Below are positions 7,663-55,723 of a stretch of DNA of 64,000 nucleotides, in pieces. The stretch's first letter is position 1. Each line of letters begins with the position of its first letter. The translations under genes were made by a program, and so were the position numbers. Below the pieces are notes generated by a model. The model was not told the origin of the DNA. It searched no databases and worked only from the letters and a program-made list of their open reading frames with translations. Source of the DNA: a virus. Location of the stretch: positions 1 through 64,000 of IMG/VR virus record IMGVR_UViG_3300030060_007423. The stretch is one strand, 5' to 3'.

Positions 7663-7670
7663 TATTTATA
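7663..7670 (+). promoter_or_regulatory. Late-type promoter box TATTTATA
   Basis: AATATTTATATTAATAAAG directly follows the preceding stop. Reading it as a -10 box puts a start of transcription near 7677, leaving a short leader for a start at 7699. Confidence 0.5.
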
Positions 7671-7698
7671 TTAATAAAGTATGATTAAGGAAAACAAT

Positions 7699-10128
7699 AT
7701 GCAATTAGGAAACTGGCTAGCTGAACAAATACTTTTAGAGCAATCTAATATAAAAACCGTTGTTGCAATTTACCCAGGTAGATTTCAACCAATGGGAAAA
7801 CATCATGCACAAACCTACCGTGCACTAACATCAAAGTTTGATGATGTTTGGGTTGCAACAAGTGGAAAGGTTAGTCTTCCAAAGTCACCGTTTTCTTTTG
7901 GCGAAAAAAAGAAGATAATAAACTCTCATGGAATATCAAAGGTAAAACAGGTCAAAAATCCATACCAAGCTACAGAGATATTAAATAAGTATGACCCAGA
8001 AACAACAGCTGCCGTATTCATTGTTGGTAAGAAAGATGCAAGCAGATTAGGGGGCAAGTTTTTTAGGCCCTGGAAGGGTAAAGCACAAATCGGATATAAG
8101 GATGGCGCATATACATATATAGCACCACATGTGTCCCTAAGTGTTCCAGGCTATGGAGAAATGAGTGGAACTGCAATACGCAAAGCTCTAGGCGATACAT
8201 CACTTGAAAAGAAAGATAAAGTAAAAGTATTTAAGGGAATATTTGGCCACACAAAAAATTATGATTTCATTGTAAAGAAACTTGAAAAGTTAAATGAGAT
8301 TGTTGAAGGCTTTGTAAATAGTTTTGATTTTAGTAAATTTATTAATGAAACATCAGCAACACCAAATAATAATTCAGATGTAGATGATGGACCAAGATAT
8401 TTTTATGGCTATCAAAAAGCGTATAGGGAATCCACAGCTGAGATTGCAAAGAGCTTAGGTATGAGTGTATTAAATTATATTGTTGGTGATGAAGAGTTTT
8501 TTCAACATGACACTGTATACCCTAATGGTCCAACTGGTGCCGTTTCATATTTTCCAACAGGTGTACCCGGCCAACAAACTGGTACAAATGTTTACAAAGA
8601 CTCAGTTGGAAAAGTTGCATATAAAAAATACATAGAACACATTTCAGCTGTTGCACAACAAGTTGGTTATAAGTTTATTGATTTTATTAGTTTAGATAAA
8701 TTTATAGATGATAGCCCAGACGAACCAAAAAACATTACCAAATATGATTTAACAGAAAACATAAATTTACCAATAGAGGTTGGTGATACTGTTATGATGG
8801 GAAAGTTCAAAAATAAAAAAGTTGTTGTTAAAGATATATCTTGGAATGATAAGGGTGACTTATTAATAAATGGAAGACCTGCATTAAAAATTAGAATACC
8901 TAAAAAACAAAATATATTTAATGAAGGTTTAATTTTAGAAGGCGGTGCATACGGTCATATGTCTCACCCATTTGATGATAAAGGATTAACATTTGGTGAT
9001 TTCAAAAAAATAATTGAACTAGGACTTCAAGGAAGTATAGATTTAGAACAATCAGCAACTGAAAAAACAGATGGTCAAAATTTATTTATTAGTTGGAATA
9101 ATAAATTAGTTGCTGCAAGAAATACTGGTGATATAAAGCGTGGTGGAAAAGATTCTAAAGCAATTGCAAAAAAGTTTGCTGGCAGAGGAAATATAGAAAA
9201 AGCATTTAATTATGCAATGAGAGATTTATCAAAGGCAATTGGTGGATTGAGTGATAAACAAAAAAAGAAAATATTTGATGATGGAAACAACTGGGTGAAT
9301 ATGGAAATAATGTACCCGGCATCCTCAAATGTAATTAATTATGATGCACCATATTTACAATTTCACAATGTATTAAAATATAAAAATGGAAGTGCAGTTG
9401 GTGCCGTACATGATGGTGCAAGAATATTGGCTGGAATGGTTAAGCAAACAAATCAAAATGTACAAAAAAGTTTTAGTGTTATTGGACCTAAAATATTAAA
9501 GGTTAAACCTCATCAAGATTTTGGTGCAAAAAAATCATACTTTATTGGAAAGCTTAATAAATTGATGTCAAAATATAATATGGGAAATAGTAATACATTT
9601 GGCGAATATCATCAGGCATGGTGGGAAGATTATGTTGAAAAGAATTTAGGTGCAGTTGACAATACAATAAAGATGGGCTTGGTTAAACGCTGGGCATTTT
9701 TTGATAAATCATTTAGGTTAAATTCAAAAACAATTCCAGATAAAGACATCTTGACAAAAGTTATTGAAATTGACAAACAAAAACATGTAGACCAAGTAAA
9801 GAAAAATATGTTTCCATTTGAAACTTTGTTTTTTGAATTAGGTGCCGAGGTACTTAAAAATGTAGAAGGCTTTCTAGCCGGAAATCCAGAAAAAGCAGTT
9901 CAAAATGTTAGAAGACAAGTTGCAAAAGCAATTGGTGATGTTAGAAAAGGCGGTGACCTAAAAAAATTAAATAGATTAACACAACAACTTGAAAAGATAA
10001 AGGCTATTGGTGGATTCAAAACAATCATACCAAGTGAAGGTTTAGTTTTTATTTATAAAGGAAAAACATATAAGTTAACAGGAAGCTTTGGACCAGTAAA
10101 TCAAATCACTGGATTGATGAGCTTTTAG
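7699..10128 (+). CDS. Fusion: cytidylyltransferase-like + middle domain + nucleic-acid-ligase-like domain
   Basis: Start at 7699 is preferred over ATG 7681 because AAGGA ends 7 bases before it. Residues ~20-200 form an NMNAT/cytidylyltransferase-like Rossmann domain with PGRFQPMGKHH (the HxGH site is degenerate: only the last His fits) and a good SGTAIR motif. An unassigned middle (~230-420) follows. The C-terminal ~400 residues look like the covalent nucleotidyltransferase (ATP-dependent ligase) fold: KTDG near 456-459, a charged strand WVNMEIMYP as motif III, YLQFHNVL, and a late KILKVK as motif V. Adenylyl transfer linked to RNA/DNA end sealing or NAD metabolism is possible. The N-terminus MQLGNWLAEQILLE ends in an LxE site like those cut by T4-type prohead protease, so the protein may travel in the capsid. 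Confidence 0.7.
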   Translation: MQLGNWLAEQILLEQSNIKTVVAIYPGRFQPMGKHHAQTYRALTSKFDDVWVATSGKVSLPKSPFSFGEKKKIINSHGISKVKQVKNPYQATEILNKYDPETTAAVFIVGKKDASRLGGKFFRPWKGKAQIGYKDGAYTYIAPHVSLSVPGYGEMSGTAIRKALGDTSLEKKDKVKVFKGIFGHTKNYDFIVKKLEKLNEIVEGFVNSFDFSKFINETSATPNNNSDVDDGPRYFYGYQKAYRESTAEIAKSLGMSVLNYIVGDEEFFQHDTVYPNGPTGAVSYFPTGVPGQQTGTNVYKDSVGKVAYKKYIEHISAVAQQVGYKFIDFISLDKFIDDSPDEPKNITKYDLTENINLPIEVGDTVMMGKFKNKKVVVKDISWNDKGDLLINGRPALKIRIPKKQNIFNEGLILEGGAYGHMSHPFDDKGLTFGDFKKIIELGLQGSIDLEQSATEKTDGQNLFISWNNKLVAARNTGDIKRGGKDSKAIAKKFAGRGNIEKAFNYAMRDLSKAIGGLSDKQKKKIFDDGNNWVNMEIMYPASSNVINYDAPYLQFHNVLKYKNGSAVGAVHDGARILAGMVKQTNQNVQKSFSVIGPKILKVKPHQDFGAKKSYFIGKLNKLMSKYNMGNSNTFGEYHQAWWEDYVEKNLGAVDNTIKMGLVKRWAFFDKSFRLNSKTIPDKDILTKVIEIDKQKHVDQVKKNMFPFETLFFELGAEVLKNVEGFLAGNPEKAVQNVRRQVAKAIGDVRKGGDLKKLNRLTQQLEKIKAIGGFKTIIPSEGLVFIYKGKTYKLTGSFGPVNQITGLMSF

Positions 10129-11018: not shown

Positions 11019-12518
11019 ATGAAAAAGAAAACACTACAAAAATTAGTTAAAGAACAAGTAGCTTCATTACTAACAGAAAAATTTGCTTCTAAAAAAATTA
11101 CAGATATGTATCGTAAAATTACTGGTGGTAAATATTCAACCGATAAAAAATTCTGGGGTGCTGCATCAAAGGCGTATGGCATTGAGTGGGACAAGGTAAC
11201 AGACGACATGGTATCTGGACCAACGGGAAGAATGACAAGAAAAGGTTTTGAATTTCTTCTTGCAGCCAAAGACATGGTAGTGCGTGGTAGTGGTAGATAT
11301 GATTATGGCAGAACCATAAAAAAAGGTCAAATACTTAGTGCTACATATAATGGTAAGGCAATATATTTTGGAAGAAGTGGTGTAACAACAGGTGCTGCAT
11401 CAGCTGGAACATATCCTGAATATATAGGACTTAATGTAATGGGATTCAAAAATGCAGACCAAATTATCAAAAAACTTCCAGGCAAAGTTGAGGTATACCA
11501 AATAGATGTGGATAAAGCTCGTGGTGCAAAGGGTAAACGACAAGGTAGGTCAGACGCAAGAGCAGGTGCAACTGCACTTATGGACTTCAATGTAATTAAA
11601 AGAAAAAACCAAGCAAGATATGAAAAGGCACTAACTGATAGATTGGCTAAATCAAGTCCAGTTGACCAAGCTTGGAAAATGGTAGAGGCAACTCAAAAAA
11701 TGATAAATGATGCATTAAAGAAAGACCTTGATATGTTAAAGAAAGGAAAGGCTAAAGACAGCTGGAGAAGTTCAAGTAGCATACTACAAAATGCATACAA
11801 TAATATGACAAGGTCAATAACAAATATATTGAGTAATGAAAATGCTGCTATTAAAGGTGCAGAAAAAGATAAAGCAAATAAGTTAAAGTCCGGTGATAAA
11901 CAATCATGGAGTGAAGAGAAATATTATTTGGATAGAATTGTTGAAGAAGCCAGAAGCATTCAAAAAGAATATAAAGAAATGAAAATGGCATTATCTAAAA
12001 TCAATAAAGATAGGGAATATATTTCAGTTGTTAGAGAGCTTAAAAAAATTGGCCAAATGAATAAGAATGCACCAAAGGCTGATTATTCTGAAGATTCAAA
12101 TATGAATGAATCAGCAGAAAAAGGTCTTAAAGCAATTCCTGGAGTATTATCTTTTGATATAGAACAATTTCTGAAGAAACAAAAAGATGCTAAAAAACTA
12201 ACCAAAGGTAGTTTTACAGATTTAGTAAAGGCACTACATTCTAGAGGCTTTGGAGAAATTCCTAATGGAGCAAACCTTAGAAATTGGAAAGCAGTAGTTA
12301 AAAAGCATATCAAAGAATCTAACGTAAATGAATCAAAGAAACAACTTAAAGAAGAATACATTGAAATCATGAGAGACCTTGATAAAGGTTTGGCATTAGT
12401 AAAAGATTCATGGTTAGATTGGAAGAGAGGCCCTATGACAGAGCCAAGTGATATTAAACCAGCACAAAAAGAGTTGATTGGTTATATTGCAAAATGGATA
12501 AAGAAGAATATAAAGTAG
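11019..12518 (+). CDS. Putative virion/internal head protein (499 aa), unknown function
   Basis: Not recognised. The N-terminus is a short amphipathic helix ending in LLTE (residues ~17-20), which looks like a T4-type capsid-targeting peptide with an LxE cleavage site. Residues ~30-200 look globular, with a beta-rich segment (GQILSATYNGKAIYFGRSG). Residues ~215-345 are long Lys/Glu-rich helices suggestive of coiled coil, followed by further helical segments. No catalytic motif stands out. It sits four bases after the XhlA-like gene and seven before another short gene with a similar N-terminus. Capsid localisation is a hypothesis. Confidence 0.6.
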   Translation: MKKKTLQKLVKEQVASLLTEKFASKKITDMYRKITGGKYSTDKKFWGAASKAYGIEWDKVTDDMVSGPTGRMTRKGFEFLLAAKDMVVRGSGRYDYGRTIKKGQILSATYNGKAIYFGRSGVTTGAASAGTYPEYIGLNVMGFKNADQIIKKLPGKVEVYQIDVDKARGAKGKRQGRSDARAGATALMDFNVIKRKNQARYEKALTDRLAKSSPVDQAWKMVEATQKMINDALKKDLDMLKKGKAKDSWRSSSSILQNAYNNMTRSITNILSNENAAIKGAEKDKANKLKSGDKQSWSEEKYYLDRIVEEARSIQKEYKEMKMALSKINKDREYISVVRELKKIGQMNKNAPKADYSEDSNMNESAEKGLKAIPGVLSFDIEQFLKKQKDAKKLTKGSFTDLVKALHSRGFGEIPNGANLRNWKAVVKKHIKESNVNESKKQLKEEYIEIMRDLDKGLALVKDSWLDWKRGPMTEPSDIKPAQKELIGYIAKWIKKNIK

Positions 12519-19363: not shown

Positions 19364-20026
19364 ATGAAAAGTTTACTAGTTGATTATACTAACTTTGATA
19401 TAACACCACAAATGATTACCGAGTCTGAACAACAGAATGGCGGAAAGGTAATATTGACAGGTGTTTTACAAAGAGCAGGCGCCAAAAACCAAAATGGTAG
19501 GGTATATCCTAAAGATATTTTGGCTAGGGAAGTTGCTGAGTATAAAAAAGGCCCAGTTGCCGAAAGGCGTGCACTCGGAGAATTGGACCACCCAGAATCA
19601 TCTGTAGTAAACTTATCAAATGCAAGCCACAATGTTTTAGATTGTTGGTTTCAAAACGATGACGTTATTGGTAAAGTTGAAATATTAGATACACCAAGTG
19701 GAAAAATACTTAAAGAACTATTAAAGGCAGGAATTAAGTTAGGAATAAGTAGTAGAGGCTTAGGTTCTGTTAGGGAACTTGGTGAAGGCACTGTTGAAGT
19801 ACAAGACGATTTTGAATTAATATGTTGGGACTTTGTATCAAATCCATCAACCCACGGAGCATTTATGAAACCCATGAATGAATCCGTAAATCTATCATCT
19901 CCTGTTGATAGATTTGATTCAATAAACAATATAATTAGAGAAATCATTTGTGAAACAACTGGAAAGTGTTCTATAAAACATGCAAAACACTCGTGTAAAT
20001 GTGGCGGAACATGTGGCCACTGTTAA
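19364..20026 (+). CDS. gp21: Prohead core protease gp21 with Cys-rich tail
   Basis: The product fits the T4 gp21 serine protease that cleaves scaffold, capsid and internal proteins at (L/I)xE sites and then itself. The N-terminal part has LTGVLQRAGAKNQNGRVYP; the catalytic His lies in LGELDHPE and the Ser in LGISSRGLGS, as in this family and the related herpesvirus assemblins. At 220 residues it is near normal length. The last ~25 residues are unusual, with six Cys and three His (CSIKHAKHSCKCGGTCGHC), a likely metal-binding tail. AAGGACG precedes the ATG. Confidence 0.93.
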   Translation: MKSLLVDYTNFDITPQMITESEQQNGGKVILTGVLQRAGAKNQNGRVYPKDILAREVAEYKKGPVAERRALGELDHPESSVVNLSNASHNVLDCWFQNDDVIGKVEILDTPSGKILKELLKAGIKLGISSRGLGSVRELGEGTVEVQDDFELICWDFVSNPSTHGAFMKPMNESVNLSSPVDRFDSINNIIREIICETTGKCSIKHAKHSCKCGGTCGHC

Positions 20027-20676: not shown

Positions 20677-21015
20677 ATGAGTAAATTCAAACCAAGAACT
20701 AGAAATGGTCAAGTAATTAAGAATTACATAAAGAGAACAGACTTTGTTCTTCCGGGTTGCGCTAATGGCGTAAAAGTACCAAATGCTTCACCCGGAGCAT
20801 TAGAGAAATCATTAAAGATTCTAAAAAGACAATTAAAGGATACTGAAATGTTTACTGAGTTGAGGGAGAGACAATATTTTGAAAAGCCTTCTGCAAAGAA
20901 ACGTAAACAAAAACAGCAAGCTATCAGAGCTCAAAAGAAATGGGAGAGAGATAGAAAGCGGTATGAAAAACAACATCCTTGTTGGACAGTTATTAGAAAC
21001 GGACAAGCACAATAA
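20677..21015 (+). CDS. rpsU: Ribosomal protein bS21 homologue, extended at both ends
   Basis: The core LEKSLKILKRQLKDTEMFTE followed by LRERQYFEKPSAKKRKQKQQ aligns with bacterial bS21, which has LxRFKR, then V..EVRRREFYEKPT...RKR. In bacteria bS21 binds the 30S platform near the anti-SD end of 16S rRNA and assists translation initiation. Here the core is preceded by ~40 residues with one Cys and followed by a basic helix ending HPCWTVIRNGQAQ. It is a single-gene unit with its own promoter-like element and a terminator on each side, placed inside the head gene block. The ATG has no SD. Phage bS21 copies are known from marine phages. Confidence 0.85.
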   Translation: MSKFKPRTRNGQVIKNYIKRTDFVLPGCANGVKVPNASPGALEKSLKILKRQLKDTEMFTELRERQYFEKPSAKKRKQKQQAIRAQKKWERDRKRYEKQHPCWTVIRNGQAQ

Positions 21016-54637: not shown

Positions 54638-54821
54638 AATTTTACAAGATGAGATTAAAGCCAAAAAGTTAGAATTGTCTAAATTACAAGATGATTGTAA
54701 ACATGAAAAAAAACAAATAAAAATGGATGAAACAAACTCCGCAATGTGGGAATGTGAAAATTGTTCAAGACGACTAAGATACCCTACACCTGCAGAGATG
54801 GATATATGGATTAGCAAGTAA
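54612..54821 (+). CDS. Coiled-coil protein with zinc-ribbon-like end (69 aa)
   Basis: The first ~30 residues are a coiled coil (QQAKILQDEIKAKKLELSKL). CKHEKKQ, then about 15 residues, then WECENCSRRLRYPTPAEM contain C-x-H and C-x-x-C that could bind zinc. It overlaps the preceding gene by 26 bases in another frame and its last base is the first base of the next ATG. Not a named family. Possibly nucleic-acid or protein binding. Confidence 0.6.
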   Translation: MKTVNQQAKILQDEIKAKKLELSKLQDDCKHEKKQIKMDETNSAMWECENCSRRLRYPTPAEMDIWISK

Positions 54822-55723
54822 TGAACATATTAAGTAGTTATGTAGGAAATACGCCTTTAGTTCCAATTACTATGGGAGGTTACACAGTCTGGTGTAAATG
54901 TGAATTTATGAATCCCGGTGGTTCTGTTAAAGATAGAATGGCCACCCACATATTAAATAGTGCTGAACACAATAAATTAATCAAAAAAGGTGATACACTA
55001 ATAGAGGCAACTTCAGGAAATACTGGAATTGCTTTTGCTATGTTAGCAGCTGAACGAGGTTATAAAATGAAAATTGTTATGCCGTGCAATATGAGCGAAG
55101 AACGTAAACAAATGTTAAAGTTTTATGGCGCCGAATTAATAGAGGTTGATGCAGGTGATTTTGATGCTGCAATTGATTTAAGAGATACACTTGCAAATGC
55201 TAAGGGATGGTTTAATTGTAATCAGTTTCATAACCCACTAAATATAGAAGCACACTATAAAAATACAGGACCAGAGATAGAAAGACAAGTTAGGTCTCAA
55301 CTTGATAGCTATGATTATGATGGATGGCCTCAAGCATTTGTGGCTGGAACAGGTACTGGTGGAACAATTATGGGTTGTGGAAAATACCTACAAAAACATT
55401 ATCCAGGTATAAGTTTAGTTGCAGTTGAACCAGAAGAAAGTGCCGTCATGTCAGGGATGGAACCAGGCTTACATGGTATACAAGGAATTGGTGATGGTAG
55501 TAAGTTTTTAGTAGACTTAAACAAAATTAGTGATATTATAACTGTACATACAGAATGTGCAAAAAAAGTAGCAAAACATTTGGCATTACGATATGGCTTA
55601 TTTGTTGGAATAAGTGCTGGTGCAAATGTTAAGGCCGCATTTGAATGGTTACGTGACAATGATAAAAAACATGCAATAACTATTCTTTGTGATAGAGGTG
55701 AAAGGTATTTTAGTTGCTTATGA
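54821..55723 (+). CDS. cysK: Cysteine synthase (O-acetylserine sulfhydrylase-like, PLP enzyme)
   Basis: The 300-residue protein has all hallmarks of the CysK/CysM fold II PLP family: VGNTPLV, PLP Lys37 in NPGGSVKDR, substrate loop TSGNTGIAFA, PCNMSEERKQMLKFYGAELI, the phosphate-binding GTGTGGTIMG and GISAGAN. It would make Cys from O-acetylserine and sulfide. The active-site elements are complete and length is typical, so it is likely functional. Sulfur-assimilation genes in phages are auxiliary metabolic genes; Cys supply could help make Fe-S or thiol proteins. Stop and start overlap with both neighbours, so it is in the nrdJ operon. Confidence 0.9.
   Translation: MNILSSYVGNTPLVPITMGGYTVWCKCEFMNPGGSVKDRMATHILNSAEHNKLIKKGDTLIEATSGNTGIAFAMLAAERGYKMKIVMPCNMSEERKQMLKFYGAELIEVDAGDFDAAIDLRDTLANAKGWFNCNQFHNPLNIEAHYKNTGPEIERQVRSQLDSYDYDGWPQAFVAGTGTGGTIMGCGKYLQKHYPGISLVAVEPEESAVMSGMEPGLHGIQGIGDGSKFLVDLNKISDIITVHTECAKKVAKHLALRYGLFVGISAGANVKAAFEWLRDNDKKHAITILCDRGERYFSCL

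Follow-up and report, generated by a model that had tools for sequence, protein, structure and literature searches.

A single gene at positions 7699 to 10128 of a 64,000-nucleotide stretch of viral DNA (IMG/VR virus record IMGVR_UViG_3300030060_007423, positions 1 to 64,000; hereafter the window) encodes an 809-residue chain in which two different nucleotidyl-transfer folds are joined, which raises the question of whether the chain works as one enzyme or is meant to be taken apart. The answer favored here is that it is probably a head-targeted, protease-processed polyprotein of a T4-related phage, whose enzymes would be delivered by the virion and undo damage inflicted by host defences. The chain and its candidate protease are laid out as follows, a slash marking each predicted cut:

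7699..10128, + strand: predicted polyprotein gene, an intact open reading frame (ORF) translating to 809 aa
7699..7740, + strand: capsid-targeting-type peptide MQLGNWLAEQILLE, ending in the site LLE/QS (E14, at least 90% conserved)
7741..8349, + strand: NMNAT/NadM-like adenylyltransferase domain, aa 15-217, from Pfam matches in relatives and Foldseek of an AlphaFold2 (AF2) model
8347..8349, + strand: predicted prohead-protease site INE/TS (E217), invariant in a variable linker of low predicted local distance difference test (pLDDT) score
8350..8748, + strand: MID (middle) domain without family assignment, aa 218-350
8755..8757, + strand: predicted site LTE/NI (E353) before the small module, with a similar border in relatives that have this module
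8758..8904, + strand: small module INLPIEVGDTVMMGKFKNKKVVVK..INGRPALKIR, for which KOW is only a shorthand label
8938..8940, + strand: predicted site ILE/GG (E414) before the ligase-like domain, invariant in an alignment of 50
8941..10125, + strand: RNA-ligase-like covalent nucleotidyltransferase domain, aa 415-809, from a separate AF2 model, Foldseek and VIA-align
19364..20026, + strand: prohead protease, Peptidase_S77 (T4 gp21 family; PF03420, E 8.8e-29; phrog_207, 6e-55), the candidate processing enzyme

A scan of viral contigs returned 262 relatives of the whole protein, and the alignment of 50 showed conserved blocks separated by variable linkers. In the phage collection, the closest records were those of Microcystis phage Mel-JY01 and of huge-phage assemblies from uncultured sources. 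A cellular family was rejected, as only 7 loci were found in 84,980 genomes and L241, L242 and L243 had terminase-like or portal-like neighbours by eye. The architecture census was based on 114 complete chains (421-2463 aa), the Glu/Met counts at the ligase border on 176 distinct chains from wider scans, and the count of invariant ligase-domain residues, like the separate AF2 model, on 39 diverse sequences. The census yielded 26 architectures, some relatives having up to nine interchangeable modules, the majority of them preceded by a predicted cut site of the kind marked above. The ligase domain was present in all 114 chains, the NMNAT domain in 112, MID in 108 and the small module (VGDTxxxGKFKNK) in 47, alongside a P-loop kinase (25), a C45-type Ntn hydrolase (10), a ParB-like module (8) and a CCA-adding enzyme with HD domain (6); these counts are lower bounds, since the BLAST searches used single examples. 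The census labels MEMB, EREA, GIPPG and ZNMP are working names only.

The motif [IL]xE, of the T4 prohead-protease type, stood before every domain of the window protein (E14, E217, E353, E414). The low-confidence segments of the full-length AF2 model (residues 7-15, 217-243, 332-375 and 396-421) included these four residues and E409, which therefore lie in likely flexible parts. An earlier note on this DNA, made from the letters alone, had seen the N-terminus end in LxE, a feature that held throughout the family: an LxE-type site was present within residues 9-30 in 113 of the 114 complete homologues, compared with 26% by chance. Upstream of the NMNAT domain a site lay within 16 aa in 101 of 104 contexts (chance 19%), and upstream of MID within 22 aa in 114 of 115 (chance 25%), the sole exception, IKE/E, fitting too. 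Among the forms with Glu at the ligase border, position P3 was Leu or Ile in 136 of 136 cases (87 of 87 when each distinct context is counted once; the rate over all Glu is 17%), while at the kinase and Ntn borders it was Ile, Leu, Val or Phe in 23 of 23 and 5 of 5 cases, respectively (30% at all Glu). Many homologues also repeated the N-terminal peptide just before the ligase E/GGAYGH, with MSLGNYLAEQILLE at the start of the chain and SLGQWLANQILLVE/GG internally.

The same signature was found where single modules stand alone. Lone kinase genes of cultured phages begin with MKTFAELQE/GVYDP (Methylophilales phage Melnitz) and MIPFILKE/GLYDP (Pelagibacter phage HTVC008M), a lone ligase (L084) with MKFLKSYEEFLNENLILE/GG (LILE/GG), and a lone MID ORF (L245) with ILIE/G. 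The Ntn module matched NF040521 (C45 autoproteolytic hydrolase, 9e-11) from just past its first Cys, and its profile found no sequence relative in the PDB. This first Cys was the P1' residue of [IV]xE in every case; Chryseobacterium phage MA9V-2 has a lone homologue, where the Cys came right after FINE. Known C45 enzymes must free their first Cys by cleavage, and a cut at xE/C before the C45-type module would free a catalytic N-terminal Cys. In another relative (L244:4339-7245) the order of modules was reversed, with a ligase-like domain behind IAE/GG followed by an NMNAT domain with canonical HAGH.

At the ligase border, the predicted protease site was repeatedly replaced by what appears to be an internal start. 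Residue P1 was Glu in 141 of the 176 distinct chains and Met, encoded by an in-frame ATG, in 35. The hexamer AAGGAG preceded this ATG at one fixed spacing in 32 of the 35 Met forms, compared with 0 of the 141 Glu forms and 0.7% of 4047 other internal ATGs. In these genes AAG accounts for 24% of Lys codons and GAG for 22% of Glu codons, and the Leu codons in between varied synonymously while the hexamer itself was constant. A tree of 113 C-terminal domains required at least nine Glu/Met switches, six of them forced by well-supported branches; linker exchange by recombination could be the source of some. The Met-start domains were considered as mere separate genes, and this was rejected because the upstream frame is open, without a stop, wherever upstream sequence exists. 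On the simplest view, the ligase seems to need an N-terminus of its own (GGAYGH), which either proteolysis or internal initiation would supply.

These observations bear directly on the proposal that the product is an uncut, bifunctional NMNAT-like and ligase-like enzyme, acting in the cell or the virion, in which xE would reflect linker composition. The order NMNAT-MID-ligase is indeed kept in most members and the linkers are rich in charged residues. We nevertheless regard an uncut fusion as distinctly improbable, given the site statistics at five module borders, the E/Cys junction before the Ntn module and the conservation of IAE/GG in the chain with reversed order. The border sites, the repeated targeting peptide and the substitution of a site by Shine-Dalgarno sequence and ATG likewise argue that separate proteins are the intended products of the chain, and on this point the fusion enzyme envisaged by the earlier note was not supported as the mature product.

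The Met forms could also be taken to mean that the protein acts late inside the cell without being packaged, the internal start of some relatives providing free ligase at late times; indeed, a ligase lacking the targeting peptide can be made by the 35 Met-form homologues. This seems quite unlikely in view of the N-terminal xE peptide of 113 of the 114 chains and of the kinase module that stands behind a short xE-ended leader in cultured T4-like phages. The xE sites would, moreover, need the prohead protease, which in T4 is active inside the prohead (PMC9958956).

Both enzymatic folds were identified mainly by structure, and here AF2 and the structure searches agreed with the two folds that had been proposed from the letters. 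The C-terminal domain had no sequence match in Pfam, NCBIfam or PHROG, and a profile search of PDB sequences gave chance-like matches only, e.g. ribosomal protein eS6. As the full-length AF2 model (pLDDT 66) was too poor to place this domain, it was folded alone, with a pLDDT of 82 and a predicted template modelling score of 0.70. The top five Foldseek matches of this model were T4 Rnl1 (three entries) and T4 Rnl2 (E 0.04-0.37). VIA-align ranked the fungal tRNA ligase Trl1 on top (Z 7.5), with AsfvLIG, T4 Rnl2 (Z 7.0) and T4 Rnl1 (Z 6.2) also matched, and its best 50 rows held covalent nucleotidyltransferases only. The modelled domain is thereby a predicted member of the covalent nucleotidyltransferase superfamily, nearest by fold to T4 Rnl1, T4 Rnl2 and Trl1. 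Its catalytic motifs are:

9064..9066, + strand: Lys456, the predicted nucleophile, in motif I EKTDGQN; invariant
9304..9306, + strand: Glu536, motif III (NMEI); invariant
10036..10038, + strand: Glu780, motif IV (SEGLVF); invariant
10072..10074, + strand: Lys792 of the motif V-like YKLTG (KxT, not KxK); K and T invariant

Residues K456, D458, G459, R474 (the Arg of motif Ia), E536, E780 and K792 were invariant across the 39 diverse sequences (~50% divergence), including the lysine of KTDG that had been picked out earlier as the nucleophile. If ungapped, the range starts given by VIA-align put Lys456 at Rnl2 K35, Rnl1 K99 and Trl1 K148, which we take to be the nucleophiles of those enzymes. 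About 180 mostly helical residues are inserted between motifs IIIa and IV, and therefore motif V almost ends the protein.

The first domain is a predicted adenylyltransferase of the HIGH superfamily. Pfam CTP_transf_like was weak on the window protein (E 0.022) and clear in relatives (1.5e-8 in L083), and the NCBIfam NMNAT/NadM cut-off was not reached (18 bits compared to 127). Foldseek of the full-length model returned NadM/NMNAT (NaMNAT)/PPAT folds with a probability of ~1.00 (2qjo and 2r5w at 1.00). A degenerate HxGH with an intact SGTAIR had been reported before, and both were found:

7777..7806, + strand: GRFQPMGKHH, degenerate HxGH with the last His kept; G27, R28, F29, P31, H35 and H36 invariant in the alignment
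8164..8181, + strand: SGTAIR motif; S156, G157, T158 and R161 invariant in the alignment

The window protein thus reads GKHH at this position, and most members carry GxHH. The window clade has GRFQPMGKHH, a second large clade FGPHH, and distant members canonical FHxGH (more distant relatives reading HKGH, HAGH, HSGH or HRGH), so that the change from HxGH to GxHH is likely derived. Between the two enzymes, MID also occurred as the separate ORF beside L245, and the small module was also found in Pelagibacter phage HTVC008M (AGE60462). Matches to RecT and YopX were judged to be chance, and the window protein had no peptidase family match; an HExxH stretch was seen in only one relative (L103).

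The partner modules of the relatives add further predicted enzymes. The kinase module matched AAA_33 and Zeta, and the PDB entries that its profile matched best (E 5e-4 to 7e-3) were seryl-tRNA(Sec) kinase and one of 171 aa under the name metallophosphoesterase, presumably the kinase domain of Clostridium thermocellum Pnkp. The CCA/HD module of L235 matched PolyA_pol (5.5e-31) and HD (3.9e-8), and the CCA module the CCA tRNA nucleotidyltransferase family (2.5e-52). A Nudix module (8.8e-15) was present in the incomplete chain L149, and relatives gave a weak match to a Pol-beta-like domain and a very weak one to an ART-like domain. Three chains showed individual features. In L237 (1774 aa), one of the six CCA/HD chains, only the tail of that module is left (~aa 385-435), a trace of module loss. 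Residues 1790-2030 of L235 form an alanine/glycine-rich, possibly membrane-active module, found in 5 chains and a candidate for helping the pieces cross a membrane. A huge-phage relative of 915 aa (L083:9581-12328), with matches to phrog_2859 and phrog_3041, carries a ParB_N-like domain ahead of an NMNAT domain with canonical HRGH.

The course that we propose for the polyprotein starts in the prohead. The 14-residue N-terminal peptide, judging from its sequence, would bring the chain to the prohead core in the manner of the T4 internal proteins, and the S77 protease of the phage would cleave the [IL]xE sites behind residues 14, 217 and 414, and probably also behind 353, a step to which several independent supports point. 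The NMNAT-like enzyme cut free in this way would have ~23 kDa and the RNA-ligase-like one ~44 kDa, with middle pieces besides; by analogy with the known T4 internal proteins, all of these would be injected with the DNA. Their folds, invariant active-site residues and partner modules suggest that they may undo damage caused by host defences: the ligase would adenylylate itself on Lys456 and join broken RNA again, with tRNA as the likeliest substrate; the NMNAT-like enzyme would restore NAD or a related dinucleotide; and the kinase, CCA-adding/HD, Nudix and other modules of relatives would complete the kit. That the enzymes serve RNA repair or NAD metabolism immediately upon entry, as the earlier note raised, is a plausible prediction. 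RNA repair is favored because the nearest folds are RNA ligases and because of the partner modules. We see about an even chance for the wider generalization, namely that T4-related phages, mostly from marine samples, make a late polyprotein, in which a targeting peptide leads exchangeable enzymes for RNA repair, NAD and other defence-countering tasks, that is packaged whole and cut inside the capsid by the prohead protease, with the C45-type cut creating the Cys and the ligase site repeatedly traded for an internal ribosome-binding site and ATG.

The main rival accepts cutting and packaging and assigns the pieces to NAD metabolism, the ligase-like domain not joining RNA but being some other adenylyl-transferring or NAD-linked enzyme, and the NMNAT-like domain regenerating NAD against NADase defences. 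The NMNAT domain of 112 of the 114 chains, the Nudix and ART-like modules of relatives and the known ability of phages to counter NAD depletion (PMC9503650) fit such a role. It remains unlikely in our judgement, as the nearest folds of the last domain are RNA ligases, the CCA enzyme and P-loop kinase partners point to RNA, and the phage record, which may be incomplete, yielded no NAPRTase (NadV family, PF04095). That the domains are degenerate and the chain serves as a structural core protein of the head, as the altered HxGH and the KxT of motif V might suggest, is very improbable: the ligase-like catalytic residues are invariant over ~50% divergence, and the modules are freely exchanged among relatives, unlike scaffolds.

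Several points weigh against the reading as a processed set of delivered repair enzymes. The ligase fold scored modestly, at a Foldseek E of 0.04 and a Z of 7.5, where the tool advises caution below 8, although the uniformity across the matches is telling. Motif V carries KLT or KFT, with invariant Thr, in place of the two lysines of KxK, and with GxHH instead of HxGH in most members the NMNAT-like activity or its substrate may differ. Chance occurrences of [ILVF]xE are found inside folded parts of the window protein (E69, E440, E636, E690 and E713), and the sequence counts are phylogenetically non-independent. We infer the targeting function from the position of the peptide and its xE end; no published virion proteome was found for any member, the Melnitz paper is without mass spectrometry, and Mel-JY01 went unmentioned in the papers listed for it.

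Among described systems, the nearest class is the polyvalent proteins of phages and conjugative elements (Iyer et al. 2017; PMC5512222). These are big chains of several unrelated enzyme domains, for which co-injection with the DNA and activity on nucleic acids, nucleotides and proteins are predicted. The mixture of enzyme domains in one chain and a variable architecture (here 26 in 114) are shared. P1 DarA and DdrB are said there to be cut before or during packaging, and processing is ascribed to built-in zincin-like metallopeptidases, whereas here it is apparently due to the S77 prohead protease at [IL]xE. A capsid-targeting-type peptide and per-module sites, as well as a translation start inside the chain in some lineages, also set the present family apart, and searching that paper by term turned up neither prohead-protease processing nor such an RNA-ligase combination.

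The T4 internal proteins IPI-III and Alt have a short N-terminal targeting sequence or leader that is cut off by gp21, and are packaged, several of them countering defences (PMC3012670, PMC9958956). Defence proteins of diverse kinds make up the T4 internal proteins that bear a capsid-targeting sequence (PMC3012670), and gp21 does the trimming (PMC9958956). They are, however, single proteins that lose an N-terminal peptide only, while here several enzymes are strung together with a site before each. In SPN3US, all mapped cleavages remove N-terminal propeptides, save the protease's own (PMC10052503). The ligase-like domain shares its fold, the motif order I, III, IV, V and the position of the Lys nucleophile with T4 Rnl1/Rnl2 and the LIG domain of Trl1, but differs in the lack of a sequence-family match, the ~180-residue insertion, the KxT of motif V and a C-terminus soon after it. 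With NadM/NMNAT the first domain shares fold and SGTxIR, but it falls below the family cut-offs and has GxHH for HxGH in the window clade. The RNA-repair sets of jumbo phages reviewed in PMC7824862 (Rnl, polynucleotide kinase, a CCA-adding enzyme and RlaP) bring the same enzyme types together in one phage, described there as separate proteins and present here as modules of one late polyprotein. The literature searched held no example of a multi-enzyme chain cleaved at every border.

If the proposal is correct, tailed phages own a modular delivery chassis, in which one targeting peptide and a short cut-site grammar load many enzymes, and the maturation protease doubles as an enzyme activator. 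It would also explain how these phages could withstand defences that cleave tRNA or deplete NAD, beginning with the first minute of infection. An xE/ before each module would give a reading rule for spotting injected enzymes in unannotated phage genomes, and an RNA-ligase-like family unrecognised by sequence in any library searched is added. Virion fragments with the predicted N-termini are a directly testable prediction.

The genomic setting agrees with the late-operon location noted earlier: genes for terminase, portal, S77 prohead protease, major head protein and sheath follow farther downstream in the same direction, and the polyprotein genes of relatives have a similar late-operon neighbourhood. 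A mechanical ORF listing puts the start at 7681; position 7699 was preferred because a Shine-Dalgarno sequence, AAGGAAAACAATATG (AAGGA), lies just upstream and because it matches the conserved N-terminus of 49 aligned homologues. Two further features of the late region are:

7663..7670, + strand: TATTTATA motif, late-promoter-like, 36 nt before the polyprotein start codon
22284..23987, + strand: major capsid protein (phrog_138 major head protein, 5e-73)

On the + strand of the window, 13 of 18 copies of TATTTATA lay within 70 nt upstream of a gene, in zones that make up 5.8% of the window. The sites include 7663, 10141, 13302, 16767, 27459, 30619 and 44659, and many precede virion genes. Read in reverse complement, the motif gives the T4 late consensus TATAAATA, which was not itself enriched upstream on the coding strand (2 of 5 copies for the same-composition control). 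TATTTATA is a possible late-promoter element of this phage group.

Other genes of the phage were also noted. At 11019-12518 of the window, a 499-aa protein without family match begins with MKKKTLQKLVKEQVASLLTE/KFAS, which resembles a further head-targeting peptide bearing an LxE site. Between the genes for the prohead protease and the major head protein sits an ORF similar to ribosomal protein S21 (20677-21015; phrog_21469, 5e-8), and Mel-JY01 likewise has an annotated RpsU near its protease gene. The start of the ORF at 54821-55723 resembles, by eye, a pyridoxal phosphate-dependent cysteine synthase (VGNTPLVPI..NPGGSVKDRMA), a possible auxiliary metabolic gene. Based on ARAGORN, the same phage (genome ~135 kb) possesses tRNA-His, tRNA-Arg and a tmRNA with the tag GEQVEMAMAA (L251:11367-11659), the last being unusual for a phage.

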